DNA from: a virus
Direction: 5' to 3' (one strand)
Virus record (IMG/VR): IMGVR_UViG_3300047461_000359
Location: 1-22,339 of that record
DNA: 22,339 nt
A model generated the notes under the pieces. It saw only the letters and a list, made by a program, of their open reading frames with translations. It searched no databases and was not told the DNA's origin. Positions within the stretch are counted from its first letter, which is position 1; each line of letters begins with the position of its first letter. Below are positions 6,508 to 20,730 of the stretch, piece by piece. The position numbers were made by a program, and so were the translations under genes.

Positions 6508-7918
6508 AGCAGTTAGTTTAACAAAAAGATTTTTAGGTGTAGATGAAAGTGTAAAAGGCTTTGGCGCGGTTGCAAAGCAGGCATTACGTCCTTCAACTCT
6601 TTTCGGCACAGGCACTTCTGTAGGGTCAGCAAGGGCATCAATGCCAGGTGCAACTCCACAAACTACACAAGCGGCAAGCAATGTTACAATACCTGAAGAT
6701 CCGACGGAAAGTTTAATCGCGGAAGAAATATCCTCTCTTAATAAAAATCTCGAACAAAATATTAGAGCTCTTGATAATACCCTCGAAGCAAATGTTAAGT
6801 TAATGTCAAGGGACGTTGCCTTTTTAACAAGGCAAATTGCTGACCAAGCAAATGATATGGATTTGAATCCCGACAGCCCAACAAAACGTCAAATTGACGA
6901 TTTGATTGAAGAACAGGAAGCCACAACAAGAGCTATATTGAATATGAATGGCATGGGCGGTATGATGGGCGGATTTCCTATGGGAGGTAGACGTCCTGGC
7001 TTTTTTGGTCGTAATAAAACAGGGCGCACCGTGGCGAAGGCAGGAGGTGCCGCTGGCATGGGCGCGGGCGCAAATGCTCTTAAAGGAGCAACACAAGCAA
7101 ACCTTCCTAAGGGTACCAAATTAAATTCAGCCGGAAGATTAGTTGATGCAAAATCAGGTAAATTTGTAAAAAATCCTGCTGGACAGACACAGACAAAGAT
7201 AAACCAAAATATTCAGAATAAAGTAAAGAAAAAAGTTGGTTTGAAAATAGGTGCTAAACTTGCAACTAGAGGTGCTTTGGCAGCAACAGGTGTAGGTGCA
7301 GTTGCAAGTGCAGGTTTACTTGCATATGATGTGGGTGAGGCTGTCTTCAGTAAGGGTGCAAGAGCTGAATATACTATGGCAAACCCAATGGCATCTGAAG
7401 AAGATAAACAGGAAGCATTGGATTATCTAATAAAAGAGGATCCTACAAGATTGGGTGTTGAAGGTCTCGAGAATATTACACCTGAAAAACGTATGGACTT
7501 CCTATCTGCACAGGACGAAAATCCAGAACTGACAAGTGAACAATTCAATACACAAATGATAGAAGAGCAGGGCGGTCCAACAGATAAACAATTGGCTGAT
7601 TTACAGTCCAAAGTAACCGACCAAACTTCTGGCTTCTTCAATAGGAAAAGCAATGACCTTGAAGAAGCACAGGCAATGATTAAAAGTTCCGGTATGGAAG
7701 GCCAAGTTGTTGCTAGGGAAACAAACAATGGTATTGAACTTGAAAGAGTTACAGAAGATACAACTAAAGGTATGGATGGAGCAGGGCAAACACCTCCGAT
7801 AGTAGTAAATGCTCCTCAAGCGGCGCAGGCACCTCAACCTGACATTGTTGTAACATTACCTAAAACTATTTTGTCGCAAAATCCGTCAGCACGAAAATTT
7901 ATTGCCTCAACATTCTAA
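6500..7918 (+). CDS. Probable tape measure / baseplate hub-tail length protein (gp29 position)
   Basis: 472 residues. Regions in order: a low-complexity start; a predicted coiled coil around residues 72-120 (EEISSLNKNLEQNIRALDNTLEANVKLMSRD pattern); a Gly/Met-rich segment (~150-170, MNGMGGMMGGFPMGG); a basic stretch; a hydrophobic Ala/Gly segment (~250-280) that could insert in a membrane; and an acidic, helical C-terminal half. These features, and the position right after a frameshifting chaperone, fit a tail-length ruler such as T4 gp29 (590 residues), though it is shorter. The last bases overlap the stop of the convergent radical SAM gene. Identity is inferred mainly from context. Confidence 0.6.
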   Translation: MDRAVSLTKRFLGVDESVKGFGAVAKQALRPSTLFGTGTSVGSARASMPGATPQTTQAASNVTIPEDPTESLIAEEISSLNKNLEQNIRALDNTLEANVKLMSRDVAFLTRQIADQANDMDLNPDSPTKRQIDDLIEEQEATTRAILNMNGMGGMMGGFPMGGRRPGFFGRNKTGRTVAKAGGAAGMGAGANALKGATQANLPKGTKLNSAGRLVDAKSGKFVKNPAGQTQTKINQNIQNKVKKKVGLKIGAKLATRGALAATGVGAVASAGLLAYDVGEAVFSKGARAEYTMANPMASEEDKQEALDYLIKEDPTRLGVEGLENITPEKRMDFLSAQDENPELTSEQFNTQMIEEQGGPTDKQLADLQSKVTDQTSGFFNRKSNDLEEAQAMIKSSGMEGQVVARETNNGIELERVTEDTTKGMDGAGQTPPIVVNAPQAAQAPQPDIVVTLPKTILSQNPSARKFIASTF

Positions 7919-9477
7919 CTTAGTTTTTTCTTTTTATATTCTTCTACAAACTTGTGCGATTCATTCACGCCCAGTGTAATATCGCCATGCTCTCTATAGG
8001 ATTTGTGAAGGTCCTCGTAGGACATACCTGCATTTTGAAAAGTATGAAAGTGCCAAACGTGAGGATATTGGTCATGCCATAAATCTCTATTGGATTCATA
8101 TTTGGCATATATTTTATGTGCTTCCCAAATATCCATAGTATCATGCTCCCACACTGTAAATGTAGGATGTGACAGACGATTCCAAATTGAATCTCGAACT
8201 CGGGGAGACAAATTTTCTCCCAGTCCCTCTTTTGAGGCACCAAGTTTTTCCATTGTTGTTTCTCTAAATAATCCTGATTCCTCCCATGTTTCTTCAAACT
8301 CTGAATATGTATTTCTTAGATTGGAATCAGTTATTTTATGGTGAATTTGTAAAGGAAAAATATTCATTGATGGGTGTTTCATATTATCGAACATCCACTT
8401 TACACCGGCATCCAATGTTTCCTCAGTTTCGTGCGGCAAGCCGATAATATAACTAAACGTTGTTCTAAATTTGCCAAGTGTTTTCAAGAAATAATCTTGT
8501 GCCTCAAGAATTCCTTCTTTTAATTTTTCGGGATTCATACCCTTACCAATGGACTTAGCAGAAGCATGATTAAAAGATTCAATACCATAGTAATGACCCC
8601 ACAATCCCATCTTTGCCATATGTTCCCAGTCTTGTGGGCGTGCCGCAACAAGGTCTGCCCTCACATAGCCCTGTATGTTAGTCTCAAAGGGTAGTTTATC
8701 AATAACATTACCCGCGGCTTCTAATACTGTATGTTCTGCGTTTGTTGTTTCGTCAGCACAACTGTAATCAGTAATACCCCAATATTCATAATTCCGTAAG
8801 AGTTCATCATACAAGTTATCCATACATCTGGAAGTCTTACCCTTATATCCAATAATATTGAAGTAACAAAACTTACATTTAAACTTACACCCACGAGTAA
8901 GTTCGAGTGTTAAGTTTTCACCTGGTTGTATATGGTCACGTTTCTCATACTTAACCTGTAAATCATCCATTGGATATGACGGGTGAGAAGTATCACAGTT
9001 TACAAACTGATAATTCCTACCCATCATTTCAAATTTTTCAATTACAACACTACTAGGATTTCCTGTAAGTTTTTTAAGGAGTTCTATGATAGCATGTTCT
9101 GCATATCCAGCAAGGTGAAAATCTGCAGGAAGCATGTGACTTGTCATCAACATTTTACCACCAGCAATTGTAGAAACATGCGGATATGTTTTCTTTAGCC
9201 AGTGCATAAAATCAACAATATCTTGTTCCTTAGTAAGCAGGCTGAATACAGTGCTAACACCAATGAATACTGTATCTTTTCTTATTCTTTGTTTGTAAAA
9301 TTCTTTTAGTTCGTCAATCGACCATGCAGGCATAAAGTCCAGGACTTCAATATCCCAACCATGCTCCCTGAGATGGGAAGCAATTCTATGAGCACCAGAC
9401 GCTCTTTTTACCGAGATGTGATTGACCGCCTCATGTATTGGCGTTTCAATCCATCCTCCCATAATGATACCGTGCAT
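7915..9477 (-). CDS. B12-binding-type radical SAM protein
   Basis: 520 residues. The N-terminal ~140 residues look like a cobalamin-binding Rossmann domain (GAHRIASHLREHGWDIEVLDF, GVSTVFSL, STIAGGKML, LAGYAEHAI). The radical SAM cluster motif follows as CKFKCKFC (C197, C201, C204, CX3CX2C) in ELTRGCKFKCKFCYFN. Later elements (YGIESF, YIIGLPHETEET) fit a TIM-barrel radical SAM core, and the C-terminal ~130 residues are unassigned. Such enzymes often methylate or rearrange unactivated carbons; the substrate here is unknown. The TAGGA site before the ATG lies just past the gp32 terminator T-tract, so expression may depend on readthrough. It overlaps the convergent tape measure gene by four bases. 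Confidence 0.85.
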   Translation of the reverse strand: MHGIIMGGWIETPIHEAVNHISVKRASGAHRIASHLREHGWDIEVLDFMPAWSIDELKEFYKQRIRKDTVFIGVSTVFSLLTKEQDIVDFMHWLKKTYPHVSTIAGGKMLMTSHMLPADFHLAGYAEHAIIELLKKLTGNPSSVVIEKFEMMGRNYQFVNCDTSHPSYPMDDLQVKYEKRDHIQPGENLTLELTRGCKFKCKFCYFNIIGYKGKTSRCMDNLYDELLRNYEYWGITDYSCADETTNAEHTVLEAAGNVIDKLPFETNIQGYVRADLVAARPQDWEHMAKMGLWGHYYGIESFNHASAKSIGKGMNPEKLKEGILEAQDYFLKTLGKFRTTFSYIIGLPHETEETLDAGVKWMFDNMKHPSMNIFPLQIHHKITDSNLRNTYSEFEETWEESGLFRETTMEKLGASKEGLGENLSPRVRDSIWNRLSHPTFTVWEHDTMDIWEAHKIYAKYESNRDLWHDQYPHVWHFHTFQNAGMSYEDLHKSYREHGDITLGVNESHKFVEEYKKKKLS

Positions 9478-9542: not shown

Positions 9543-10469
9543 TTAGTCTTCTTCTGCTAATTTAGCAAAATAACTTAGTGTATCCTCATCATCATCTGAA
9601 TCTACACTTGAGGAAACTGTAACTGTGTCAGATGTAGCTGCCGTAACTGCAACCAAATCCTCAATGTCATCTGTTCCTGTCTGTGCAGAAATAGTTTCTG
9701 CTGTTGTAACTTTAGCACCACCTGAAAGGACTTGATTAAGTTTAGCTTTCAGTTCATCATATGTTTTAAAGTTTTTTGGATCAACAAGTTCAGCAAGTGA
9801 GTGTTGTTTACCCCAGATTGCTTCAATATCTTCATCAGATTCAGCAACAGGAGTAGGTGAAGATTCAAACTCTGACTTGTCATAGTTTCTATAACCATCA
9901 ACCTGACGAGCCTTCAGTTTAAAGTTTACACCTTCCCAGAAGTCAAAAGGATTAACTGGTGTTTCATCCTCAAACTCTGGTTGCATAACATCCTTAATTT
10001 TGTCAAAGATTTTCTTACCAAACTTATAGAGGAAAACTTGGCCTTCGTTGGCCGGATTAGCAGGATCTTTAATAACAAGAACATTTGCATAATAAGACAA
10101 ACGGCGTTTCTGTTTACGAGCAACGTCCTTATTTGCCTCTGTGCCACTGTTCCAAAGCTCACTATTAAGTTCTGAAACAGGATCAGGTTGGGAAAGTGTA
10201 GTAAGTGAATTTTCAATATACCACTTACCAGTTGGGCCTTGGAAACCATGGTTCCAAAGACGAACCCACGGAAGTTCTTCACCCTTAGGCGGTGCCAAGA
10301 ATCGAAGAACAGCATAACCGTTACCAGCAGAATCTACTTGTAGCTTCCACTCGTTACCGTCATCTTTGTTATAGTTTTGTTGGGGGGAATCAATTTTTTC
10401 GACTTCTTTCATTAAATTATCGAAAGAGCCTCTTGCCTTACGCAAGTCTGATAGTGAATTAAACGACAT
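9543..10469 (-). CDS. 32: Single-stranded DNA-binding protein gp32
   Basis: 308 residues (T4: 301). It has a basic N-terminal cooperativity region (SLSDLRKARGSF), then a core that tracks T4 gp32 closely: EWKLQVDSAGNGYAVLRFL, NHGFQGPTGKWYIENS, LSYYANVLVIKDPANPANEG, FLYKFGKKIFDKI. It ends in an acidic tail (DSDDDEDTLSYFAKLAEED) that in T4 contacts replication partners. The protein contains no cysteine, so the T4 zinc site (His-Cys3) is absent and the loop carrying it is replaced. GGAG precedes the ATG. The gene is last in the operon before a strong terminator, and its leader carries repeats that may be an autoregulatory site. Confidence 0.96.
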   Translation of the reverse strand: MSFNSLSDLRKARGSFDNLMKEVEKIDSPQQNYNKDDGNEWKLQVDSAGNGYAVLRFLAPPKGEELPWVRLWNHGFQGPTGKWYIENSLTTLSQPDPVSELNSELWNSGTEANKDVARKQKRRLSYYANVLVIKDPANPANEGQVFLYKFGKKIFDKIKDVMQPEFEDETPVNPFDFWEGVNFKLKARQVDGYRNYDKSEFESSPTPVAESDEDIEAIWGKQHSLAELVDPKNFKTYDELKAKLNQVLSGGAKVTTAETISAQTGTDDIEDLVAVTAATSDTVTVSSSVDSDDDEDTLSYFAKLAEED

Positions 10470-10528
10470 ATTTTTTCTCCGTATAAGCGTTGTATGTTTG
10501 TGTATGTTGTCCTGTATAAGCGGACATA
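10470..10528 (-). promoter_or_regulatory. gene 32 leader with repeats and hairpin (candidate autoregulatory operator)
   Basis: The 59-base leader holds a small hairpin (TGTCC-GCTTATACA-GGACA). The sequence in its loop, CGCTTATAC, recurs just before the Shine-Dalgarno (CGCTTATACGGAG). Between the copies lies an A/C-rich stretch with ACATAC repeated. T4 gp32 represses its own translation by binding an upstream pseudoknot and an unstructured A/U-rich ribosome-binding region. The repeat arrangement suggests a comparable control site, but no pseudoknot was proven by inspection. Confidence 0.45.
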
Positions 10529-11104
10529 TTATTTATAAAAGTTTTCACTTACATGCCTCATTTTATTTGTAATTTGGACAAATGGACGATACTTCTTAAC
10601 TAACATTGAAACGTCCTCTAAGAATATATCATCAGAATCCATAGTAACATAATTGTAGATTTTGTCAAGCACAACTAATGTTTCTATAGATATTAGGTGA
10701 CCAAAATATAATCTATAGATTAAAGGATGATATCCATCTTCAGATGTAAAAGGATTTGCAATACTTTCCTGCTCCATCTCCAATTCAATCTTAGCAATAT
10801 CCTGTTCAAATATGTAATCAAGTTTTTGTTTACGAGACTTCCATATTTCATATGTTTCCTTTGCATTGGCATCAAAGACGCCGCCCCACTTGTCGCCGGA
10901 AACAAAGTTAGCAACAAGCAAATCTATAATCTCACGCCGCTTGTAATCGCGAGCAAGTTTACGCATAGCTGTCAAGTCTTTGCGTTTAAGGAAAGCATTT
11001 TGACTTGCCCTTACTGCACCTTTTGTTTTTGTTATGTTATAATCTTTTTTTGTAAAGTGTAATTTAAGAGCGAGGTATAATCTATATACTTCAAATGGTT
11101 CCAT
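10529..11104 (-). CDS. 59: Helicase loader gp59
   Basis: 191 residues (T4: 217). It shares the all-helical pattern and key stretches with T4 gp59: FEVYRLYLALKLHFTKKDYNITK at the start (T4 SVYKLYLMIKQHM...YDVIK), VRASQNAFLKRKD, RREIIDLLVANFVSGDKWGGVF (T4 ELALIFISNLVANQDAWIG), and IYRLYFGHLISIETLVVLDKIYNY (T4 IFKLLQSNIISFETFILLDSFLN). In T4 it loads gp41 helicase onto gp32-coated forks and D-loops. The gene order 33-59-32 is as in T4. Its start overlaps the gp33 stop (TAATG). Confidence 0.9.
   Translation of the reverse strand: MEPFEVYRLYLALKLHFTKKDYNITKTKGAVRASQNAFLKRKDLTAMRKLARDYKRREIIDLLVANFVSGDKWGGVFDANAKETYEIWKSRKQKLDYIFEQDIAKIELEMEQESIANPFTSEDGYHPLIYRLYFGHLISIETLVVLDKIYNYVTMDSDDIFLEDVSMLVKKYRPFVQITNKMRHVSENFYK
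10530..10537 (-). promoter_or_regulatory. T4-type late promoter before gene 32
   Basis: An exact TATAAATA on the minus strand overlaps the gene 59 stop and lies 60 bases before the gp32 ATG. The predicted start, near 10524, would give an mRNA beginning with the repeat-bearing leader. It would allow gp32 to be made late in infection independently of gp59 and gp33. Confidence 0.68.
10641..10668 (-). promoter_or_regulatory. Candidate sigma70-type promoter inside gene 59
   Basis: Minus-strand TTGACA, 16-base spacer, TACTAT, with an extended TG before the -10 box. It lies about 170 bases before gene 32 inside coding sequence, so chance is possible. The spacer end resembles the two better-supported early promoters in this window. 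Confidence 0.35.
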
Positions 11105-11397
11105 TAGAAAGGTAACTTACTAGTTTTCTCTTTTAATAAATTAAGTGATTCTGCTTCTTCTTTAATCTTTTCTTTTAGTGATGATGTGAGAAGTTTTTTA
11201 ACAGATTCAATTTCGATTTCTTCTTTTACACAGAAGTCAATGAGAACATCAATATAACCTGTCTTTGTAGCTTTAGACTTTTTCTCAATGTATTGTGAAA
11301 ATTCAGTTGACGTATGAAAACGTTTTGTAATTAGAAATACATCCGATACTTTTTTCACGTCTGTATTGAGATCATTATCTACAATAAGTTTAGGCAT
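11104..11397 (-). CDS. 33: Late promoter transcription co-activator gp33
   Basis: 97 residues (T4: 112). Recognised by position immediately before gene 59 and by its helical body (GYIDVLIDFCVKEEIEIESVKKLLTSSLKEKIKEEAESLNLL), which parallels T4 gp33 (IIEKMVEEFGMSYLEATTAFLEE...IIEKIQSEAIDENLL). T4 gp33 links RNA polymerase to the gp45 sliding clamp and makes late transcription replication-dependent. The C-terminus is short (KEKTSKLPF); in T4 this end carries the hydrophobic clamp-binding motif. It overlaps the preceding epimerase gene by eight bases. Confidence 0.82.
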   Translation of the reverse strand: MPKLIVDNDLNTDVKKVSDVFLITKRFHTSTEFSQYIEKKSKATKTGYIDVLIDFCVKEEIEIESVKKLLTSSLKEKIKEEAESLNLLKEKTSKLPF

Positions 11398-12238
11398 TGT
11401 GTTTCCTTTGTGTCCAGTCTGTAATATACTTAATTACATTTTGTGTTCTGTTAATATATGGGTCTTTGCATATTGTGTGTTGAGCTTCACCGGGCTTATC
11501 AAACTCATATATCATAGGATGATTAAACGCCTCTGCAATGTCATTAATAGTGTAACTTTCACCCGAGCCTAAATGTATTTGTTTGCGTTTCTTTTCATCA
11601 AACAAAGATTTGAAGACACCTTCAACAACATCCTTAACATGAGTAAAGTCCCGAGATTTGTGACCTGTTCCAAATATTTTTAAACTTTCACCTGCTAAGT
11701 AAGCCTTTTTAAACGAACGAATAACGGTGCTATGTTCACCATAGTCTGCTTCACGCGGACCATATACGTTATAAAAATACATTAGACGATAATCAAGTCC
11801 CCAATGACGTTGGTATAGATGCATAACTTCTTCACCAAAGGCCTTACCAAGAGCATAAGGATTATCGTCAGCATGTCCAAATATTCTACTAGAAGACTGT
11901 CCAAAATACAAGGGGCAATTCAACCTTTTTGCCCATTCGCATACATGTGTCGTAGGTCCAATGTTATTCATAATAGCATCAACAGGCTGTTCAAATGCCA
12001 AGCGAATACGAGGAGTATTTGCAAGGTGAATAATACCATCAGCCTGATAAACTTTATCAGTAATATCTACATCACAAACATCCTGGTGAATATATGCAAC
12101 ATAGGGCGAATCAACAATCTTAAACTTGCCGTTTCTCATGTCGTCAACAATAGTAACCGCACATTCTGCGGCAACAAGTCTTTCTACTAAGTGGCTACCT
12201 ATAAAGCCGCATCCACCTGTAACAATATAATGTAACAT
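11390..12238 (-). CDS. NAD-dependent nucleotide-sugar epimerase/dehydratase (extended SDR)
   Basis: 282 residues. The N-terminal Rossmann motif GGCGFIGSHL (8-17) is followed by D32-D33 for NAD ribose binding, S115-S117, and the catalytic Y128-A-L-G-K132. YNVYGPRE and FGTGHKSRDFTHVKDVVEG are typical of the UDP-glucose 4-epimerase/dTDP-glucose dehydratase superfamily. The exact sugar cannot be read from the sequence. It is placed between a cell-wall hydrolase and gp33, away from the glycan cluster at 13.9-22 kb, but could act with it. Start and stop overlap neighbours, so it is co-transcribed. Confidence 0.88.
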   Translation of the reverse strand: MLHYIVTGGCGFIGSHLVERLVAAECAVTIVDDMRNGKFKIVDSPYVAYIHQDVCDVDITDKVYQADGIIHLANTPRIRLAFEQPVDAIMNNIGPTTHVCEWAKRLNCPLYFGQSSSRIFGHADDNPYALGKAFGEEVMHLYQRHWGLDYRLMYFYNVYGPREADYGEHSTVIRSFKKAYLAGESLKIFGTGHKSRDFTHVKDVVEGVFKSLFDEKKRKQIHLGSGESYTINDIAEAFNHPMIYEFDKPGEAQHTICKDPYINRTQNVIKYITDWTQRKHNA

Positions 12239-12750
12239 TAGTCTCTCGGTTTATAAAATATGTGAGCATCAATACGAGCAGTAACATCCATAGTTTCTGC
12301 CCATCGAGGTTTTACATAGTCTGCATGATAAAACAACGCACCATCTGTAATATCAAGTTCAGTTTTCACTGTCAGTTTAGCAACTTCCATAATCTGTTTG
12401 TATTTTTTTATGTTTTTAACTTCATCAGATTTACCATCACAATACCATGAAAACTGGCAACGATTTTTGTATGGATAATATTTACCCGACTTTTTGCTGA
12501 TATAATGTGGACCCTCGAAAACAACCTCACATATAGTATTAGGAAACGCATCTGAGCGAACACGATTCATTGTAACATCTGCAACAGCAATCCATCCTGC
12601 CGTAGATTCATTACGAGCCTCATGGTAAATATTTTGTGTGAGGCATGCAAGTTGAGGATTATCAATTGTATTAATACCTTTATCATTGGGCAATGCCGGA
12701 TTAGAAGATATGGCTACTAATACTGCCATCATTGAATCTAAAAAATTCAT
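12238..12750 (-). CDS. SleB/CwlJ-type cell wall hydrolase (probable endolysin)
   Basis: 170 residues. LTQNIYHEARNESTAGWIAVADVTMNRV with E44 is the hallmark of the SleB/CwlJ (Hydrolase_2) family, followed by CQFSWYCDGKSD, DGALFYHADYVKPRW and the C-terminal HIFYK. This family cleaves peptidoglycan glycan strands as lytic transglycosylase or amidase-like enzymes. The N-terminal ~20 residues (MNFLDSMMAVLVAISSNPALP) are hydrophobic and could be a signal or signal-arrest-release segment, permitting export without a separate holin. It begins two bases after the pseudoazurin stop. As gp5 here lacks lysozyme, this is the best lysis-enzyme candidate in the window. Confidence 0.83.
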   Translation of the reverse strand: MNFLDSMMAVLVAISSNPALPNDKGINTIDNPQLACLTQNIYHEARNESTAGWIAVADVTMNRVRSDAFPNTICEVVFEGPHYISKKSGKYYPYKNRCQFSWYCDGKSDEVKNIKKYKQIMEVAKLTVKTELDITDGALFYHADYVKPRWAETMDVTARIDAHIFYKPRD

Positions 12751-12752
12751 AT

Positions 12753-13202
12753 TTACTGGATTTCTTCTATAAGTTTTTTGAGTTTTTTCTTGCTACCACC
12801 GAATACTTTGGCGGTCGCAACTTGATCAGCATTAGATGTATCATCACCAACAACTACAAGTGCAATCATACCCATACCCTTATGAGGTGTGCATTGATAT
12901 AGATAAACTCCAGGTGTATCAAATGTCAATGAGACTTCTTTATTAAACTTGGAACGCTTGGGTAATTCGTAACCCTCTGGTCCTGCAATAAACTCAACAT
13001 TATGACCTTTATCAGTCGGTAACCATTTGATTGTATCACCCACATTAATACGAGTAATATCTTCTGAGTAAACCATACGAGCACCATCTTCTCGCTTATT
13101 TAACATCTCTACAACTTTTTCCTCTGAATATGCAGGAGTTGCGAATGCTATAGCGGTGAAAAATATAGTTAATATGCCTAGTAATAATAAAGTTCTTGTC
13201 AT
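12753..13202 (-). CDS. Pseudoazurin (periplasmic type 1 blue copper protein)
   Basis: 149 residues with a Sec signal peptide (MTRTLLLLGILTIFFTAIAF, cleavage probably after AYS26). The mature part matches pseudoazurin along its whole length: EMLNKREDGARMVY, VGDTIKWLPTDKGHNVEF, TFDTPGVYLYQCTPHKGMGMIALVVVGD, and a C-terminal helical KKKLKKLIEEI. Copper ligands are H67, C104, H107 and M112, with the family spacing (Cys+3 His, Cys+8 Met). Pseudoazurins carry electrons in the periplasm of alphaproteobacteria, for example to nitrite or nitrous oxide reductase; the host partner here is unknown. AGGAG lies just before the start and directly follows the tmRNA end. Probable auxiliary metabolic gene acquired from a host. 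Confidence 0.92.
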   Translation of the reverse strand: MTRTLLLLGILTIFFTAIAFATPAYSEEKVVEMLNKREDGARMVYSEDITRINVGDTIKWLPTDKGHNVEFIAGPEGYELPKRSKFNKEVSLTFDTPGVYLYQCTPHKGMGMIALVVVGDDTSNADQVATAKVFGGSKKKLKKLIEEIQ

Positions 13203-13215
13203 AATATCTCCTAAT

Positions 13216-13249
13216 AAAAAAGTGGGGACTTCTGTTGCTAGGCGTCCCC
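13216..13249 (-). terminator. 3' hairpin of the tmRNA coding piece, terminator-like
   Basis: GGGGAC pairs with GUCCCC over a 14-base loop, then AC and six Ts. It is both the conserved 3' hairpin of permuted tmRNAs and a plausible intrinsic terminator. The pseudoazurin Shine-Dalgarno begins eight bases downstream of the T-tract, so pseudoazurin expression would need partial readthrough. Confidence 0.7.
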
Positions 13250-13261
13250 TGACCCCGAAGA

Positions 13262-13306
13262 TTATGCCGCGAGGGCGTAATCCTCATGTGCGTAATTATC
13301 GTTTGC
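13262..13306 (-). other. tmRNA proteolysis-tag reading frame (ANDNYAHEDYALAA)
   Basis: From the resume codon GCA (13304-13306) the frame reads ANDNYAHEDYALAA and stops at TAA (13262-13264). With the alanine brought by the charged tmRNA, the tag would be A-ANDNYAHEDYALAA. The AANDNxA start resembles the Caulobacter tag (AANDNFAEEFAVAA), which the alphaproteobacterial SspB adaptor recognises. The LAA end is the ClpX signal. The upstream GUAAGUGCAAACGAU context fits a resume site. Confidence 0.9.
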
Positions 13307-13516
13307 ACTTACGAGTTTGTTGCGCTCTTGCGGATGGGATAGCCCGTCCGTCTCACAGGTGGCTTCCGCACCTAGTTCTCCACTTACCTATTAAATACCA
13401 GTCGATCCTATTTCGCCCCCATAAAAACCGTCACCTATAGACGGCGGTTATGGTGGAGGCGCCGGGTATTGCACCCGGGTCCTGAATACCTTTTAGCTCG
13501 CTTCATCGAACACAGT

Positions 13517-13524
13517 TATTTATA
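13517..13524 (-). promoter_or_regulatory. T4-type late promoter of the tmRNA
   Basis: An exact TATAAATA starts one base after the stop codon of the 88-residue gene. The usual spacing puts the transcription start near 13511, at or just before the acceptor-piece sequence (GTTCGATGAAGCG). This suggests late-phase expression of the tmRNA and of the genes behind it. Confidence 0.75.
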
Positions 13525-13791
13525 TTAGACGGCTAAGGCTTTATAGCCAGCCGCAACAACTGCTTTACTAGGTGCACCAATACGATAGCGTGATGCACGA
13601 ACACGACCACGATTATCTTTAGTGCCTGTGTTAAGATACACAGCATGACCTGCCATACGCAAGGAAGAAACCAATGCACGAGCATTTTTCACGCCATAAC
13701 GTGTTTTCATTTCACCTGCTGTAAGAGCCTCGCCATCAAGAAGTGCGGAAAGAACACGGGCAGTTTTAGTAGTAGTAATGGTATTAGACAT
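13525..13791 (-). CDS. Small winged-helix-like protein, function unknown
   Basis: 88 residues, basic. The pattern TKTARVLSALLDGEALTAGEMKTRYGVKNARALVSSLRMAGHAVYLNT, followed by RASRYRIG, looks like a helix-turn-helix with a beta wing, as in small phage DNA-binding proteins. No family can be named. Its Shine-Dalgarno (AAAGGAGG) is the strongest in the window, and a well-formed sigma70-type promoter lies just upstream. This suggests early and abundant expression. A role as a regulator of the downstream tmRNA/pseudoazurin genes is only a guess. Confidence 0.75.
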   Translation of the reverse strand: MSNTITTTKTARVLSALLDGEALTAGEMKTRYGVKNARALVSSLRMAGHAVYLNTGTKDNRGRVRASRYRIGAPSKAVVAAGYKALAV

Positions 13792-13872: not shown

Positions 13873-14514
13873 CTAATAGGTGTAATTGTATTCCTTGCAA
13901 TCTCGGCGAAGTGCCTCATCAACAAGGCGCAATTCCAGCTCAGTATAGTATTGTTCATAAGAATGGTTCTCAGGAGTTTGCACGTTATATGTTGTATCCC
14001 AAAGATCACTAGGCAAATCATACATTTGACTAAATTGAGCCCATTCACTTTGTATCTCCTCAACACGAAATATAACATCTGCATCATGAGCAAAATAATA
14101 ATTATCTTTAGATCTCATTGACCCTGTTGTTGTTACCGCAAAGGGTGTATTAGGTTTGGAAAAATACTTAAATTTTAAAAAGTCTGTAAATGAATCAAAT
14201 TTTCTTGCACCCTGCACAAACGCATGAAAATGTTTTAAAAGATTATATTGTGAAACTTCTCTATGATAAGGATTTTTTACAAAAGCAACTGTCAAATAAC
14301 CTTCAGGTGCATATCTAGCAGGCAAGTGGTCAACCAATTGTATAGGCGATTCTATATTTTTAAAATCTAGTTTTTTAACAAAATGCTTATCAGGCATATC
14401 CTCAGGCATATAAACTTCAAATCTGTCAGAAGGTATTAATCGTTCTTTCATATTTGACCCCCCGTTATGAGGAATATGAATAAATGCAAGTTTCTTTTCT
14501 TTGTCTAAAATCAT
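13873..14514 (-). CDS. Sulfotransferase family protein
   Basis: 213 residues from the ATG at 14514, which overlaps the upstream stop as ATGA. A TTG at 14526 is possible but less likely. LAFIHIPHNGGSNM (9-22) occupies the place of the 5'-phosphosulfate loop, and VKNPYHREVSQYNLL (79-93) that of the 3'-phosphate motif (VRNPYxRxVS in relatives) of PAPS-dependent sulfotransferases. The usual first-loop Lys/Arg is replaced by His-Asn, so activity is not certain. The family sulfates sugars and other hydroxyl groups. It is the last gene of the leftward glycan cluster. Confidence 0.78.
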   Translation of the reverse strand: MILDKEKKLAFIHIPHNGGSNMKERLIPSDRFEVYMPEDMPDKHFVKKLDFKNIESPIQLVDHLPARYAPEGYLTVAFVKNPYHREVSQYNLLKHFHAFVQGARKFDSFTDFLKFKYFSKPNTPFAVTTTGSMRSKDNYYFAHDADVIFRVEEIQSEWAQFSQMYDLPSDLWDTTYNVQTPENHSYEQYYTELELRLVDEALRRDCKEYNYTY

Positions 14515-15074
14515 AAATATTTCCAATCTATATCAGGATATAGTTTTATAATTTGTTTACGTTCCTGTTCCCATCTCGCAAGTCTACGTCCATTGTCGTC
14601 CATCAACGTCTGGTCATGTAAATGTTCATTATCACCAAAACCTGCAAGATGTATTTCATTAACGCCTGTTTCTGCGGCATGCCACATAGCCAAAGATCCG
14701 GCTGCCATTAAAAAAGGCAGGCGTTCTTCTTTTACTGAAATAACTTGATCTTCTTTTCTTAGGTATGTCATTAGTGTATTGTTTCCTTCTCCACTAATAA
14801 CACATCCATATTGTGTATAATCATTGCTTTCATTTTGTGTATCAAATGTCTCAAAAGCAACAGCCATTTCACTTGGGATAGGCTCCCAATCGAGAAACAA
14901 ACATTGTCCGGTATAGTTGCGATAAATTTCGTGTTGTATTAGAACATCGGTTGCCACTATACATTGAAAATTAATATCTTCCTTGTATGCAAGATTGCAA
15001 CCATAGATATATTCATAGTTTGATAAATCTATATTCTTTCTTGACTTACCATTACCCAATATAATTGTTGACAT
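14511..15074 (-). CDS. Unknown protein with NGxS nucleotide-type motif (DUF115/GT42-like?)
   Basis: 187 residues. It starts MSTIILGNGKSRKNIDLSNYEYIYGCN, a pattern recalling DUF115/MptE-like proteins and GT42 sialyltransferases ('GNGPSL...' and a following 'CN'). Later LMAAGSLAMWHAAETGVNEIHLAGFGDN again fits that type of Rossmann-like transferase. The DNA encoding ILGNGKS overlaps the end of the neighbouring gene in another frame (23 bases). Position between two glycosyltransferase-like genes and a sulfotransferase suggests sugar metabolism. No confident family assignment. Confidence 0.6.
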   Translation of the reverse strand: MSTIILGNGKSRKNIDLSNYEYIYGCNLAYKEDINFQCIVATDVLIQHEIYRNYTGQCLFLDWEPIPSEMAVAFETFDTQNESNDYTQYGCVISGEGNNTLMTYLRKEDQVISVKEERLPFLMAAGSLAMWHAAETGVNEIHLAGFGDNEHLHDQTLMDDNGRRLARWEQERKQIIKLYPDIDWKYL

Positions 15075-15801
15075 AATCTAATCTACCCCGTTCTGCATCC
15101 TTAATTTTTTCCAAACAAATCTCCTGTATATCATACATCTCTTTAGCCAAAAAGTTAAGTTTTTTACTTATCAATGCGTTTGGATAATCCGATAGAGTGT
15201 GTTCTGGTTTATTTGATAAGATAAAACTAGGCGTTCCGAGAATTCTCGCTAGGGAAGAAGCAGAGCCATGATAACTAATCATTAGTTCAGTTTCAGTAAG
15301 AATATCTATAGCTTTATCTATAGGGGTGTCATAGTCCACAAAATTTACTTTATCAAATTGACTGTATAAAGGTTCCCAATTATTGTTTGTCGGATCCTTC
15401 CAAAGTTTGTGTTCAGGTTCAGGATAGTCCTTAAACTGAATCTTATTATTTTCTGTAGTAACAAAGGTAACATAACCGGAACCACCTCGCCATTCATTAA
15501 CTGATTTATAATTATGAAAAGGATGATTAGGCAGCTTAGAGTGTTGATAAGGTAAGTTTTTTGCAAATGTTGTTTTAAGCTCTACATCAGCAGTTCGTAA
15601 CATTACAAAAATAGTATGTAATCTATAAATTAAATCTTCACTGTCATCCTTCTCATACTTGTCTTTGACACCGACATCATTAAAGGATACCCAATCAAGA
15701 CGAACTTTTTCACCAGTCTTTTCCGATAAGTTATTTACATAAGAACAAGGTGAAGTCAAATCACCATATCCCGGTTTACCTTTCCATTCAACGCAAATCA
15801 T
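15052..15801 (-). CDS. Possible GT-B-type glycosyltransferase
   Basis: 249 residues. The C-terminal part (IDILTETELMISYHGSASSLARILGTPSFILSN) resembles the donor-binding end of GT-B enzymes such as GT9 heptosyltransferases ('...GxxHLAxxLGTPxv'). The N-terminus (KGKPGYGDLTSPCSYVNNLSEKTGEKVRLDW) resembles the GDxl/xxP start of such proteins. At about 250 residues it is short for a complete two-domain GT-B enzyme (usually 330 or more). Overlaps both neighbours, so co-transcribed. Assignment is tentative. Confidence 0.5.
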   Translation of the reverse strand: MICVEWKGKPGYGDLTSPCSYVNNLSEKTGEKVRLDWVSFNDVGVKDKYEKDDSEDLIYRLHTIFVMLRTADVELKTTFAKNLPYQHSKLPNHPFHNYKSVNEWRGGSGYVTFVTTENNKIQFKDYPEPEHKLWKDPTNNNWEPLYSQFDKVNFVDYDTPIDKAIDILTETELMISYHGSASSLARILGTPSFILSNKPEHTLSDYPNALISKKLNFLAKEMYDIQEICLEKIKDAERGRLDYVNNYIG

Positions 15802-16471
15802 CTAGAAATTCCTCATAATATTCACTCCATAAACTAGAGTATTCACAGTCTTTGGTTTCCTCAAACCAAGGTCCACCATCTGTGTAGTGTAATGCAAAAG
15901 GATATTCATGTCCCCCCAGATCATCATAGTAACCAACTAACCAGTTCCATTGTTCAGGCAATTTACCTATATCTTTATCTTCAATCCATTTAAACTGATG
16001 TAACTCTGCAGGAGTCATACTATTAACGTCCAGAAACTTATGGGATGGATGTTCATTGTTGAATAAGATCAAAGAACTCCAGTTCTTTCTAGGATATTGG
16101 AACTGGGATCTACCATCCATCTTTGTATTACTCTTTGGGGTATAGTCATGTTTAACTACCATTACAGCATACTTAGGATCCGCAAGGTCAAATAATTCCT
16201 TAACATCTTTGGTAAATAAGAAGTCACAGTCGCAATAAATCGACCATCCCTTAAAGTTTGATAGTGCAGGTGTTAGGAATCTAGTTAGAGAGAACTCCGT
16301 GGCAGCATCCTTATCCACAGGTCTGTCGTAGAGACCAAGAAGTCTTACGTTTTGTTGTTCAATCGGTTTTACGATTGCATTAGGTCTGTGTTTGCGGATG
16401 CTATACTCACAGACCTTGAATGCCCAATGCTCGCGGGAGTCATATCCAATCCAAATGTTCATACTTTTCAT
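15788..16471 (-). CDS. DxD glycosyltransferase (GT-A, GT8-like)
   Basis: 227 residues. IWIGYDSREHWAFKVCEYSIRKH at the start and SIYCDCDFLFTKDVKELFDL with D81-C-D83 are typical of metal-dependent GT-A enzymes related to GT8. RKNWSSLILFNNEHPSHKFL and a late ALHYTDGGPWF complete the pattern. It would transfer a sugar from a nucleotide-sugar donor; acceptor unknown. Its ATG overlaps the radical SAM stop as ATGA, so the two are translationally coupled and may act in one pathway. Confidence 0.83.
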   Translation of the reverse strand: MKSMNIWIGYDSREHWAFKVCEYSIRKHRPNAIVKPIEQQNVRLLGLYDRPVDKDAATEFSLTRFLTPALSNFKGWSIYCDCDFLFTKDVKELFDLADPKYAVMVVKHDYTPKSNTKMDGRSQFQYPRKNWSSLILFNNEHPSHKFLDVNSMTPAELHQFKWIEDKDIGKLPEQWNWLVGYYDDLGGHEYPFALHYTDGGPWFEETKDCEYSSLWSEYYEEFLDDLR

Positions 16472-17430
16472 CGCAAATTAAAGTCAGTTCCTAATATATG
16501 ATCCACTCTAGCATCTGGGTCATTACTCCAAACTAGCACTTCTGGATTATCATAAAGAAAGTCACAAGACTTACAATAATCAGGATAGTCACCCGTCCTG
16601 TGACCTTCTCGGAGTTTCTCATACTCCTCACCAAACCAAATATCTTTCAGGCTTGTGTCATCGGCATGACCGAGAACGGACTTTGCTTCATTTGGTTGTC
16701 CCATGGTCTGGCAACAGGGTGTAACAGCACCTCGATGTCCATCATTACCCCCAGAACGTATAGTAATTTCATTACTGAAAGGGCGACCGCATGTTCTTAC
16801 AGTTTCAGACTCCCTTGTATATTCGGGGTCATAATTACCGCTCCAATTGTGCATTTTCCAAATATAGCCCACAATATCTAATTTGTCAATGACATTTTTT
16901 CTGTATTGTTCTACTTCATATTGCATCTTATCATTGTCAAGAATAAGATTGTATGTGGATAATGTGCAATCACTGTCTTTGCGTTTAATAACTTCTTTTG
17001 CTTCTGTAATATTACTTTGCAATAAGTCAAAGTTATCTATATTCATCCACTCCGCATACTTATCGCGATTATAACCAATGCAACTATAACGAATAAACTT
17101 GATACCAGCATCTATTGTTTTCTCCAATAATTCGCCCTTTAAAAAAGAGCCATTTGTGTATATAAAACTATCATATCCATAGTCTGTGCAAAGTTGAACA
17201 TACTTATACAAATCCTTTGCCATTGAAGGTTCACCTGAACCCTCAAGGTTAATTACAGGATTGCCTTTCAATTGTTTAAGAATATTCTCAAACAAGTCAA
17301 GCGGCATTTTGCGTGTCCAGTCTTTGCCTCGTCCCCAAGTTTGAGGACACATTTGACAGGTGTAATTACACCCTCCAAATACTTCGATTACTGCTCTGCC
17401 TAAATTAGGAAGTTCTGTGGTCGCACTCAT
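16468..17430 (-). CDS. Radical SAM protein with SPASM-type C-terminus
   Basis: About 320 residues. The ATG at 17430 (MSATTELPNLGRAVIE) has AAGAG upstream; an ATG at 17445 would add five residues. The cluster motif CNYTCQMC (C21, C25, C28) is followed by VINLEGSGEPSM and FIYTNGSF, both typical of the core. C-terminal cysteines (TCGRPF, TPCCQT, YCKSCDFLY) fit a SPASM domain holding extra Fe-S clusters. SPASM proteins modify peptides or sugars, including oxidations and epimerisations; the substrate is unknown. The start overlaps the nuclease gene and the end overlaps the glycosyltransferase gene. Confidence 0.86.
   Translation of the reverse strand: MSATTELPNLGRAVIEVFGGCNYTCQMCPQTWGRGKDWTRKMPLDLFENILKQLKGNPVINLEGSGEPSMAKDLYKYVQLCTDYGYDSFIYTNGSFLKGELLEKTIDAGIKFIRYSCIGYNRDKYAEWMNIDNFDLLQSNITEAKEVIKRKDSDCTLSTYNLILDNDKMQYEVEQYRKNVIDKLDIVGYIWKMHNWSGNYDPEYTRESETVRTCGRPFSNEITIRSGGNDGHRGAVTPCCQTMGQPNEAKSVLGHADDTSLKDIWFGEEYEKLREGHRTGDYPDYCKSCDFLYDNPEVLVWSNDPDARVDHILGTDFNLR
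16861..16889 (-). promoter_or_regulatory. Possible internal sigma70-type promoter within the SPASM gene
   Basis: Minus-strand TTGACA, 17 bases, TATATT: a perfect -35, ideal spacing and 5/6 of the -10 box. It lies inside coding sequence about 390 bases before the glycosyltransferase gene. A chance match in AT-rich DNA is possible. Confidence 0.35.
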
Positions 17431-18070
17431 ATAGGTCTCTTGCATGTAGCAAGTCCTTCACATAATTATCTCGGCTCTCAATAAAAATTTGAGGCTCCTC
17501 ATCCTCTACTGCAATAAGAATAACTGACCTATTAATAGGCGTGCCTGTTCTTTCTTCATACATGATTGCGTATGCGGCTGCCTGTGCAAAGTAGTTTGTA
17601 ATCCATTCTTTTTTCTTAGGCTTACCTGATGTCTTAAAGTCAATTACACTTAACTTGCCATCAAACTCTGCAATACAGTCTACCCTACCAGCAAGACGTA
17701 AATGGTCGCTATAGAGAGCAATCTCCTGTGCATGTATATTATTTATTCGGTCTAACAAAGGGCGAAAACTTGTAAAGGTTGTTTTCTCTAACAGGGATAG
17801 TTTATCATATGAAACATCCTTGTTATTTAGAATATCCTCACAAAGGGCGTGTATTTTGGTTCCCCTTACAGACGCCTGTCTACTAATTTTATTAGCTGTT
17901 TCCTCACCCACACGTTTACGCCACGCAATAATTGAATCGCGTGTCTGATAGCCTAATACTGTTGTGACGGAAGGATATGCCGCCCCAGACTCGGTAAAAT
18001 ATTTTCTACTTCCATCTGAGGCGGTTTTATCTTGAGCGTAATCACTCAGCTCTTTTACATGATTGAACAT
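17405..18070 (-). CDS. PD-(D/E)XK exonuclease, MGME1/Cas4-like
   Basis: 221 residues from the ATG at 18070 (MFNHVKELSDYA). A GTG at 18085 would add five. Nuclease motifs in order: RGTKIHALCE with H74, E116, AGRVDCIAEFDGKLSVIDFKTS with D131 and D144-F-K146, then the Q163-xxx-Y167 motif in FAQAAAYAIMYE. This is the pattern of the RecB/MGME1/Cas4 nuclease superfamily, often found in marine T4-like phages. It probably processes single-stranded DNA ends in replication or recombination. It lies between phoH and the glycan genes and has a good promoter overlapping its upstream edge. Confidence 0.87.
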   Translation of the reverse strand: MFNHVKELSDYAQDKTASDGSRKYFTESGAAYPSVTTVLGYQTRDSIIAWRKRVGEETANKISRQASVRGTKIHALCEDILNNKDVSYDKLSLLEKTTFTSFRPLLDRINNIHAQEIALYSDHLRLAGRVDCIAEFDGKLSVIDFKTSGKPKKKEWITNYFAQAAAYAIMYEERTGTPINRSVILIAVEDEEPQIFIESRDNYVKDLLHARDLYECDHRTS

Positions 18071-18075
18071 AACAA

Positions 18076-18104
18076 AAAGTAACACATCTTTTATCTATTG
18101 TCAA
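18076..18104 (-). promoter_or_regulatory. Early sigma70-type promoter of the MGME1-like nuclease gene
   Basis: Minus-strand TTGACA, exactly 17 bases, then TACTTT with an extended TG (GATGTGTTACTTTT). It begins within the phoH stop codon region. The predicted start, near 18069, falls on the nuclease ATG at 18070, so the mRNA could be leaderless. It probably also drives the overlapping radical SAM and glycan genes behind it. Confidence 0.62.
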
Positions 18105-18844
18105 GAAGTATATTGTTCCTCATACTTCATTCGTGCTACTATATATTCCTTCACCAATTCTGACCTGACGATGTCGTCAGTGTCAAACTCTATTGTTCTG
18201 AAGGAAGGCATCATATCGGCAATCATCATAAACTTTTTAAGTCCGGACATGTCGCCGCGTTTGTATAAGTCTGTTTGTCTAAAGTCTCCGCAAAAAATTA
18301 CTTTACTATTTGTGCCAACACGAGTCATTATGGAGTTAATCTCCATATCATTCATGTTTTGGCATTCGTCAACAATAATAATTGCATTATCCAAAGTAAT
18401 ACCTCGGACAAAAGATGTAATCATCCACTCTAAATTTTTTTGTTGTAAAAGCCGACCAAAAGGATTTTGTTTGTCTGGGAAAAGTTCTTGACACATATCA
18501 ATGTATGGTCGCATATAAACTTCTGTCTTCTCAAGTTGGTCACCGGGTAAGTGTCCTATTTCTCGAGAAGGCACAGCAGATCTGCAAATAATTACTTTTT
18601 CGTATTGGTTGGATTTTTCTAAAACTTCTTCTAATGCCTTATATACGGCTATGAAAGTTTTACCTGTGCCCGCGGCACCATGTAGTAGGAAAGATGTGGC
18701 CTTTGAATATTGGTCAAAGAATACTTTTTGATTGTCTGTAATAGGATCAATTACATCTAAGTCTTGTAATTTTAATTTAACGCCTCCAGATTTTTTGTTT
18801 GTGTTGTCATCGGTTACTAGTTGAAGATTATTTCTTCTCGACAT
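18101..18844 (-). CDS. phoH: PhoH-family ATPase
   Basis: 247 residues. Walker A GAAGTGKT (56-63), Walker B IIIVDE (155-160) followed by CQNM, and sensor-type FCGDFRQTDL define the PhoH family, related to superfamily 1 helicases. ICRSAVPSREIGHLPGDQLEK is also typical. PhoH genes are very common in marine myoviruses. The name comes from the phosphate regulon in E. coli, but the phage role (RNA or DNA related) is not established. It follows a terminator, and no clear promoter was seen in the 45-base gap. The ribosome-binding site (AAAGG) is weak. Confidence 0.94.
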   Translation of the reverse strand: MSRRNNLQLVTDDNTNKKSGGVKLKLQDLDVIDPITDNQKVFFDQYSKATSFLLHGAAGTGKTFIAVYKALEEVLEKSNQYEKVIICRSAVPSREIGHLPGDQLEKTEVYMRPYIDMCQELFPDKQNPFGRLLQQKNLEWMITSFVRGITLDNAIIIVDECQNMNDMEINSIMTRVGTNSKVIFCGDFRQTDLYKRGDMSGLKKFMMIADMMPSFRTIEFDTDDIVRSELVKEYIVARMKYEEQYTS

Positions 18845-18864
18845 GTTCGACCTTTGTTGGAGTT

Positions 18865-18895
18865 AAAAGAAAAGGGCAGGCACAATAGCCTACCC
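18865..18895 (-). terminator. Rho-independent terminator before phoH
   Basis: Minus-strand stem GGGTAGGC/GCCTGCCC (8 pairs, one G-U) with a six-base loop, followed by TTTTCTTTT. The stem overlaps the stop codon of the 102-residue gene (18890-18892). It separates the carbamoyltransferase transcript from phoH. Confidence 0.85.
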
Positions 18896-19198
18896 CTGAG
18901 ATACGCCTCCTTTTGTTGAAGGAGAGTAAATTGGTTCAATACTTTTCATAATTTTATTTATAATTTCCCTTGCTTCATATGAGAGCAACCCGCTTTTATA
19001 TCCACGATCTAAAGCATCCAAAACAAAATGAGCAGTCATACAACGTAAATCTTCTTGTTTAAATTTTACGTTCTTTTCGCCCCATATGTTTACGCAGAAC
19101 AATGTCATCTCGATCTCCGCCTCAGTGTAAAGATTAATCTTAAAACCATTAGGGGGAGTCTTGTAATACCTCTTAGGAAGTTTAACAACATTGTCCAT
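18890..19198 (-). CDS. Unknown small protein, 102 residues
   Basis: Not recognised. The protein is helical in appearance with a basic start (MDNVVKLPKRYYKTPPNGFKINLYTEAEIEMTL) and two cysteines. It has no signal peptide or membrane segment. It begins 12 bases after the carbamoyltransferase stop, without a clear Shine-Dalgarno, and its end is merged with a terminator, so it is the last gene of that transcript. Codon usage looks like that of its neighbours, supporting a real gene. Confidence 0.7.
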   Translation of the reverse strand: MDNVVKLPKRYYKTPPNGFKINLYTEAEIEMTLFCVNIWGEKNVKFKQEDLRCMTAHFVLDALDRGYKSGLLSYEAREIINKIMKSIEPIYSPSTKGGVSQG

Positions 19199-19210
19199 AA
19201 AAGTATTTAG

Positions 19211-20629
19211 TTAAGAAAAGACTTTAACGCCATATTTTTTGTAAAAATTTTGTGCGTCATTCTTGTCATTTACCATAGGCTCACCTTTAATATTCAGTGA
19301 GGTGTTTAGTAACATAGGAGTGCCTGTCTCTTTTTTATATCGCATAAGCAATCTAAAAAGACCTGGGTGTTGTTCCTTAGTAACAGTTTGCACTCTGCTA
19401 GTGCCATCATGGTGAACAATGGCAGGATATTTATGCGGCACCTTACATCTTACAACGTATTGCATGTAAGGAGATTCAAACCCCCTAGGCACATCAAAAT
19501 ACCTGTGTGCCTCGTGTTTTAAAATTACTGGTGCAAAGGGTCTAAATTTTTGTCTTTGTTTTATCTCGTTGACCGTATCTTTTATGTGTCTGATTTGTAT
19601 ATCAGCCAAAAGGCTACGATTGCCGAGAGCACGAGGACCAAATTCAGCACGTCCGTTCGCTACTCCTACAATATTTTCAGTTAATAGAGAATCCAGTAAT
19701 TGTTCTACTGGATATCTACCCTCAATGTTGTATCCTAAATATGGAGTCTTCCAATTAAGTCTTCTTTGTTCACCGGCAGCTATAGCGCCAAGAGAAGAAC
19801 CCGCATCACCTGGGTTAGGCATTATCCAAACATGGTTGAAGTATTTATTAATAAAGCGATTTGCAAGACAGTTCAATGCACATCCACCCATAAGAACAAG
19901 ATTATCTTGATTTGTAAGTTGTTTTGTTAAAACAAGTAATTTCTCCAACTCTTCTTCATATACAATCTGTGCAGAGCAAGCCAAATCCTCGTCTCTTGCA
20001 CCCTCAAACGCTTCTCGGCAACCTCGGTGAAAGTTATACCCATTATGTAACATGAGGCGCATTTCTACACACCAACGAGGGCGTCCATAGGCTGCCATAC
20101 CCATAAGGATATATTCATCCTCATTAGGTTTCAATCCTACACGATCTGTAATAGCAGAATAAAATAATCCTAGTGATGTCGGATATTTCCGGCTATAAAG
20201 TTTTTGTAGTCCTGTTTTCCCCAGCCAAATGCTAGTAGTGTCAAACTCACCAATAGCATCAATGACCAAAATGGCAGAACTATCAAATGGACTAGTGTAG
20301 TAACCAGCCGCCGCATGACTTTCATGATGTAAACTCCATTTTACTTTTGTGTTAATACCATATTTTTTCAGATAGGATTTAGGATTCAACCATATTTCAT
20401 CCTGACCTGCATATAATTTCCTACCCGCTTTCAATATAGGGTTTTCATACCAATATACTTTTTCAGGTTCACCATAAGAGAGAGCGTCCGCAACAAGTTT
20501 ATCATTGAGATGTGCGTCATTTTTAATTCGACTATATCTTTCAGAATGACTTGCAAAAAGGATCTTATCATCTTCAACAACAGTCAAAGATGCATCATGT
20601 GTTCCTGCAGATATGCCCCACTTAATCAT
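19211..20629 (-). CDS. NodU/CmcH-type carbamoyltransferase
   Basis: 472 residues. Conserved elements: WGISAGTHDASLTVVED at the start, SLHHESHAAAGYYTSPF (H101, H102, H105), VIDAIGEFDTTSIW, LMGGCALNC, MPNPGDAGSSLGA, and the C-terminal EFGPRALGNRSLLAD and LNTSLNIKGEPMV. These define the two-domain Carbam_trans family. It moves a carbamoyl group from carbamoyl phosphate, via an adenylate, to a hydroxyl on a sugar or antibiotic. Related genes occur in other marine T4-like phages with unknown targets. The start overlaps the stop of the 34-residue gene as ATGA. Confidence 0.93.
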   Translation of the reverse strand: MIKWGISAGTHDASLTVVEDDKILFASHSERYSRIKNDAHLNDKLVADALSYGEPEKVYWYENPILKAGRKLYAGQDEIWLNPKSYLKKYGINTKVKWSLHHESHAAAGYYTSPFDSSAILVIDAIGEFDTTSIWLGKTGLQKLYSRKYPTSLGLFYSAITDRVGLKPNEDEYILMGMAAYGRPRWCVEMRLMLHNGYNFHRGCREAFEGARDEDLACSAQIVYEEELEKLLVLTKQLTNQDNLVLMGGCALNCLANRFINKYFNHVWIMPNPGDAGSSLGAIAAGEQRRLNWKTPYLGYNIEGRYPVEQLLDSLLTENIVGVANGRAEFGPRALGNRSLLADIQIRHIKDTVNEIKQRQKFRPFAPVILKHEAHRYFDVPRGFESPYMQYVVRCKVPHKYPAIVHHDGTSRVQTVTKEQHPGLFRLLMRYKKETGTPMLLNTSLNIKGEPMVNDKNDAQNFYKKYGVKVFS

Positions 20630-20730
20630 TTGTAAATAAACGGATCTTTTTTTCTGGCTTCTGCAATACGTTTTTTAACTAGCCTACGATGTTTAATTTC
20701 CTCAAGCCATGTTATAAATTTTTTGAACAT
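20626..20730 (-). CDS. 34-residue basic protein, unknown
   Basis: ATG at 20730 preceded by AAGGAG seven bases upstream; stop TGA overlaps the carbamoyltransferase ATG (ATGA). The protein begins MFKKFITWLEEIKHRRLVKK and ends RKKDPFIYK. It is a single amphipathic, basic helix with no known motif. The good ribosome-binding site, the coupled stop/start and the filled gap between two genes support a real gene. Its start overlaps the 3' end of the SGNH gene by 29 bases. It may mainly serve translational coupling. Confidence 0.68.
   Translation of the reverse strand: MFKKFITWLEEIKHRRLVKKRIAEARKKDPFIYK

Follow-up and report, generated by a model that had tools for sequence, protein, structure and literature searches.

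The window, i.e. the whole stretch of 22,339 nucleotides that was analysed, carries on its minus strand a pseudoazurin gene placed between a tmRNA gene and a cell wall hydrolase gene. The features of this region are as follows.

9543..11397, minus strand: T4-like gp32 (SSB), gp59 helicase loader and gp33 late transcription regulator (phrog_224, phrog_269, phrog_254)
12238..12750, minus strand: cell wall hydrolase (Hydrolase_2 / phage endolysin; PF07486, phrog_938)
12753..13202, minus strand: pseudoazurin gene, 149 amino acids, ATG start (profile matches, ligands, predicted fold)
13203..13220, minus strand: spacer with the ribosome-binding site AGGAG, 5 nt ahead of the pseudoazurin ATG (direct reading)
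13221..13549, minus strand: permuted (two-piece) tmRNA of the alphaproteobacterial type, tag ANDNYAHEDYALAA (Rfam RF01849, 114.6 bits; ARAGORN)

The end of the tmRNA lies 18 bp from the ATG of the pseudoazurin gene, and downstream the cell wall hydrolase gene follows after 2 bp beyond the stop codon of pseudoazurin. The T4-like phage context claimed in a preliminary description of this DNA is borne out by gp32 (SSB), gp59, gp33, PhoH, a tail-tube cap protein and gp2, all identified in the window. The order of tmRNA and then pseudoazurin was also found in L002-L004, in L005-L009 (85% identical) and in L010-L013 (74%). L013, a member of the clade of the window, lies on contig G003, whose gp23 is 66-69% identical to that of phage C48C1, methylophage Melnitz and pelagiphage HTVC008M; this places the window phage close to T4-like marine phages that infect streamlined heterotrophs. 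Judging by the type of the tmRNA and by the pseudoazurin tree, the host is probably an alphaproteobacterium of the sea. The tag gave no host clue, as the tags of host genomes (ANESYALAA in SAR11, and others) differ from that of the window.

In other pseudoazurin-bearing phages (L022, L029, L036, L038, L057) tmRNAs with different tags lie approximately 1-5 kb upstream. In L001 (positions 204-942) a tmRNA of the L005 type (85% to that of the window) directly precedes a pseudoazurin 100% identical to that of the window; the allele switch at this junction may be due either to recombination or to assembly. The window also contains a surface-modification-like cluster on the minus strand (13873-21553), with a sulfotransferase, a glycosyltransferase-8-like protein, a radical SAM/SPASM protein and a carbamoyltransferase, and a gene for a B12-binding radical SAM protein (7915-9477).

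The window protein scored 113 bits with the NCBIfam pseudoazurin profile TIGR02375, which is above the equivalog cut-off of 109.85 by a narrow margin. Scores with the sister cupredoxin profiles were far lower (amicyanin 42.2 bits, plastocyanin 35.3 bits); membership in the plastocyanin family TIGR02656 fails at 35 bits versus a cut-off of 87.85, and phrog_515 (cyanophage PetE) yielded just 30.6 bits, which corresponds to general cupredoxin similarity. Pfam PF00127 (Copper-bind) matched the ORF with an E-value of 1.4e-15, and pseudoazurins of the PDB matched the protein by sequence with an E-value of about 1e-26. The type-1 copper ligands named beforehand (H67, C104, H107 and M112) are all present and the C-x2-H-x4-M loop is intact, reading CTPHKGMGM as described; the four residues were invariant among 24 diverse phage proteins and also among 30 phage and host sequences. 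By eye the N-terminus is signal-like (MTR, a hydrophobic stretch, then AYS/EE, with no lipobox cysteine), the putative signal spanning approximately residues 1-26. The AlphaFold model (mean pLDDT 90.4) has strands between residues 28 and 118 and helices at 125-129 and 136-148, i.e. a cupredoxin barrel with two C-terminal helices, plus a helix at 3-19 predicted with lower confidence. When the model was compared with the PDB using Foldseek, the best matches were all pseudoazurins (3tu6, 5x31, 1adw; TM (target) 0.90-0.91). A plastocyanin or amicyanin identity was rejected, profile scores and fold ranking both favouring pseudoazurin. At the level of profiles, PDB matches and predicted fold, the earlier assignment of 12753-13202 as a genuine, intact pseudoazurin gene is confirmed.

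A scan of IMG/VR yielded 142 stretches encoding pseudoazurin relatives, 80 of which were kept, and a scan with a second seed yielded 143 stretches in a set overlapping the first. (The contigs are fragments, and counts include near-copies except where they are called distinct.) A protein identical to that of the window occurs in four more contigs from different metagenomes, in phage context. Genes for the T4 gp20 portal or gp23 capsid protein are present on several pseudoazurin-bearing records, including G003, and gp43 DNA polymerase, gp44 clamp loader, UvsX, gp46, DnaB or tail sheath genes lie close to pseudoazurin in other contigs. The gene might have been absent from all related phages, a concern of the preliminary description; the 142 stretches remove it. 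Among the deposited phages of INPHARED no pseudoazurin was found at E 1e-5, and relaxed limits gave cyanophage matches only (E >= 0.02). In BFVD no viral pseudoazurin was found, the matches being weaker and cupredoxin-like only. The open-access literature yielded nothing relevant on phage-borne pseudoazurin, cupredoxin, blue copper or DoxX, an absence that is no proof. Three bacterial MAG contigs with close pseudoazurin matches (L092, L136, L098) resemble misbinned phage; L098 is a 335-kb 'Neomarinimicrobiota' contig with a neighbourhood in common with the viral contig L058.

The phage proteins do not stand apart in a tree of 111 rows but are mixed with pseudoazurins from SAR11, SAR116, Rhodobacterales and others. 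A placement of the window protein among cupredoxins without an electron-transfer role was not seen. The window, L005 and L010 form a clade (SH-aLRT 99) whose position among the others is not fixed. A single phage origin was rejected (AU test against one phage clade, p=1e-5), a test to be read with caution as the alignment comprises 117 columns and many forks are left open. Because phage and host sequences interleave and one phage clade is rejected, the sequences indicate that marine T4-like phages took up pseudoazurin from marine Alphaproteobacteria several times. Pairwise dN/dS was 0.03-0.20 in most phage pairs and reached 0.29 in two; for the window versus L005 it was 0.145 at a dS of 0.88. 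Such low ratios speak for purifying selection on a working protein. The gene is a candidate auxiliary metabolic gene: it lies in a genuine phage genome, and the interleaved tree, the AU test and dN/dS show it to be host-derived and kept under selection.

In more than 20 contigs from several phage groups the pseudoazurin stop codon overlaps or abuts the start codon of a DoxX-family gene (mostly TAATG or ATGA junctions), the product of which is a four-helix membrane protein; gp43 is often the next gene after the pair. With a seed alignment built mostly from paired genes, pseudoazurin was located within 2 kb of DoxX in 67 of 78 loci. The scans were repeated because the early seeds came mostly from pseudoazurin loci and biased the counts; with two less biased DoxX seeds, one lacking pseudoazurin and the other not directly beside it, the counts were 38 of 75 loci and 21 of 66. 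Both genes are present and unlinked on L027, L028 and L078. Seven of the 94 distinct DoxX types are without pseudoazurin and have a gene for a signal-bearing cytochrome c directly adjacent, and none has both carriers. These class I cytochrome c genes overlap or abut phage DoxX (L271:4001-4767; also L368, L373, L375, L378, L506 and L509), two of the seven being confirmed by PF00034. No signal-bearing cytochrome c was found more than 2 kb from DoxX in 279 loci, and for about a third of the distinct phage DoxX genes no carrier of either kind lies close by. Searches for DoxX in deposited phages at E 1e-5, and for a meaningful PDB match to its fold, were negative. Host relatives of the phage DoxX are 51% identical and in two genomes stand beside an NDH-2-type dehydrogenase. 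In 34 contigs a small conserved membrane protein with no Pfam match and a core like SPLRNLDPMVxHMIFQ is encoded in the vicinity of phage pseudoazurin or DoxX (cluster c1, e.g. L022:3258-3614), and a gene for a BMP/PnrA-like periplasmic substrate-binding protein lies close to phage pseudoazurin in L056 (1993-3045) and 10 other contigs.

Plastocyanin and cytochrome c6 are the familiar case of interchange between a copper and a haem carrier. The interchange of pseudoazurin and cytochrome c beside DoxX speaks for a carrier of single electrons in the periplasm, and no other evidence supports such a use of phage pseudoazurin as well; the coupling to DoxX and the replacement by cytochrome c tell more about function than does the copper site. 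For the window phage this argument is an analogy, because no DoxX was found in the 22-kb window or in contigs of the same lineage up to 56 kb, all of them fragments. A tentative reading, given somewhat less than an even chance, is that phages of marine heterotrophs carry a modular respiratory cassette in which a DoxX-type membrane redox protein is translationally coupled to an interchangeable carrier, pseudoazurin in most and cytochrome c in others. With such a cassette the phage would add a branch of its own making to the periplasmic electron transport chain of the host; the window phage would have at least the pseudoazurin half of the cassette.

Host copies were found in more than one setting. 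In SAR116 and other marine alphaproteobacteria (L128-L134, L143-L155) they lie inside sox clusters together with soxY, soxZ, a molybdoenzyme, cytochrome c, a SoxB-like protein and flavocytochrome c sulfide dehydrogenase, and in SAR11 L095 pseudoazurin stands behind a sulfite-oxidase-type molybdoenzyme and cytochrome c. Many others have unrelated neighbours away from sulfur genes, and most of the host copies read are outside denitrification clusters.

The window protein is likely to be a carrier, encoded by the phage, that keeps electrons flowing through the host periplasm to the oxidases, possibly with a link to sulfur oxidation. As a putatively exported type-1 copper protein it would be loaded with copper in the host periplasm during infection, take single electrons from membrane or periplasmic dehydrogenases of the host (in many relatives from phage DoxX-linked ones) and pass them to host terminal oxidases, so that respiration and proton-motive force could be maintained as the host's own carriers dwindle or run short of iron. 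A general carrier that supplies the oxidases of the host is favoured because the host copies stand partly in sox clusters and partly among unrelated genes; sulfur oxidation ranks as a serious alternative and nitrite reduction as a lesser one.

A role chiefly in sulfur oxidation is possible and rather unlikely: in the periplasm the phage protein would accept electrons from the sulfite or sulfane dehydrogenase of the host (Sox or sulfite-oxidase-type enzymes) and hand them on, yielding more energy from thiosulfate or sulfite in infection. A membrane subunit linked to thiosulfate or quinone would be a fitting role for DoxX. The host genes within sox clusters and beside the enzyme of L095 point in this direction, as do known phages with dsrA, dsrC, soxC, soxD and soxYZ (PMC8190135), but the many host copies away from sulfur genes do not, the phage flanks that were read showed no recognisable sox, sor or dsr gene close to pseudoazurin, and membership in the DoxX family alone does not fix thiosulfate as the substrate. 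Of the preliminary interpretation, the intact pseudoazurin, the T4-like phage and the many relatives stand, whereas the suggested copper-dependent nitrogen redox finds no specific support and is improbable. The protein would then act in low-oxygen water, as a donor to NirK or to a nitrous oxide reductase of the host, which is the classical role of pseudoazurins. A nirK-cbb3 region with pseudoazurin, reported for some low-oxygen SAR11 of the Benguela upwelling, is in line with this (PMC12816887). Against it, no nirK or nosZ could be recognised next to the phage genes, and the host copies lie partly by sulfur-oxidation genes, partly in unrelated contexts.

DoxX proteins are tied to oxidative stress in mycobacteria, and a function in periplasmic copper or oxidative-stress handling, as a metal buffer or in a stress complex with DoxX and apart from energy metabolism, would agree with this link; it too is improbable, since the class I cytochrome c in place of pseudoazurin beside phage DoxX favours an electron carrier and a haem protein would hardly substitute for a metal buffer. 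A functionless passenger gene or assembly chimera, suggested by a short host-derived gene next to a tmRNA and by the allele switch in L001, is highly improbable: the identical protein of four more contigs comes from separate metagenomes, relatives retain the order of tmRNA and pseudoazurin, and dN/dS is low. A chimera was rejected on the recurrence of identical or related copies in phage context.

That phages steer the electron transport of their hosts is well established for photosynthesis in cyanophages; a pseudoazurin common among T4-like phages of marine Alphaproteobacteria would bring respiration under such control as well. Marine Alphaproteobacteria are among the most abundant heterotrophs of the ocean, and it becomes testable whether they respire on virus-encoded carriers when infected. 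The exchange of copper for haem beside DoxX also opens a way to study the DoxX family, which is poorly understood, and the limitation of infection by metals. The modular cassette, if true, would be a heterotroph analogue of the cyanophage genes for photosynthetic electron transport.

Solved pseudoazurins (TIGR02375; PDB 1paz, 1adw, 3tu6, 5x31) share with the window protein the fold, the ligands and their spacing (H...C-x2-H-x4-M), the length, the C-terminal two-helix tail and a signal-like N-terminus; the window protein differs in being phage-borne and is about 42-45% identical in structural alignments. The phage copies have a conserved basic C-terminal stretch like GKSKKKL, which is common to marine alphaproteobacterial copies, unlike solved pseudoazurins. 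The host pseudoazurins of SAR11, SAR116, Rhodobacterales and OCS116 (L082-L161) are up to about 64-72% identical over the best segment, and the phage copies nest within them; their neighbours are sox/sor or other genes, whereas those of the phage copies are replication genes, DoxX or the tmRNA. The phage sulfur-oxidation genes are likewise energy-metabolism genes in phages of non-photosynthetic bacteria, but encode enzymes, cytochrome subunits or sulfur carriers; azurins and DoxX are both unmentioned in the main text of that report (PMC8190135). Two-piece tmRNAs have already been published for the marine myophages Melnitz, Mosig and pelagimyophages, which, like the window phage, are marine and T4-like and have a permuted ssrA of the alphaproteobacterial type; the tmRNA lies before a transcription coactivator in Melnitz and directly before pseudoazurin in the window (PMC9004378). 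Cyanophage plastocyanin PetE (phrog_515) is also a phage-encoded exported blue copper carrier of T4-like marine phages, export and copper loading being putative for the window protein, but belongs to a different cupredoxin family (about 30-38% identity over half the length, E >= 0.02) and has a photosynthetic host and partners. The proposed heterotroph counterpart of cyanophage plastocyanin is supported, as an intact pseudoazurin in a T4-like phage and in many related phages.
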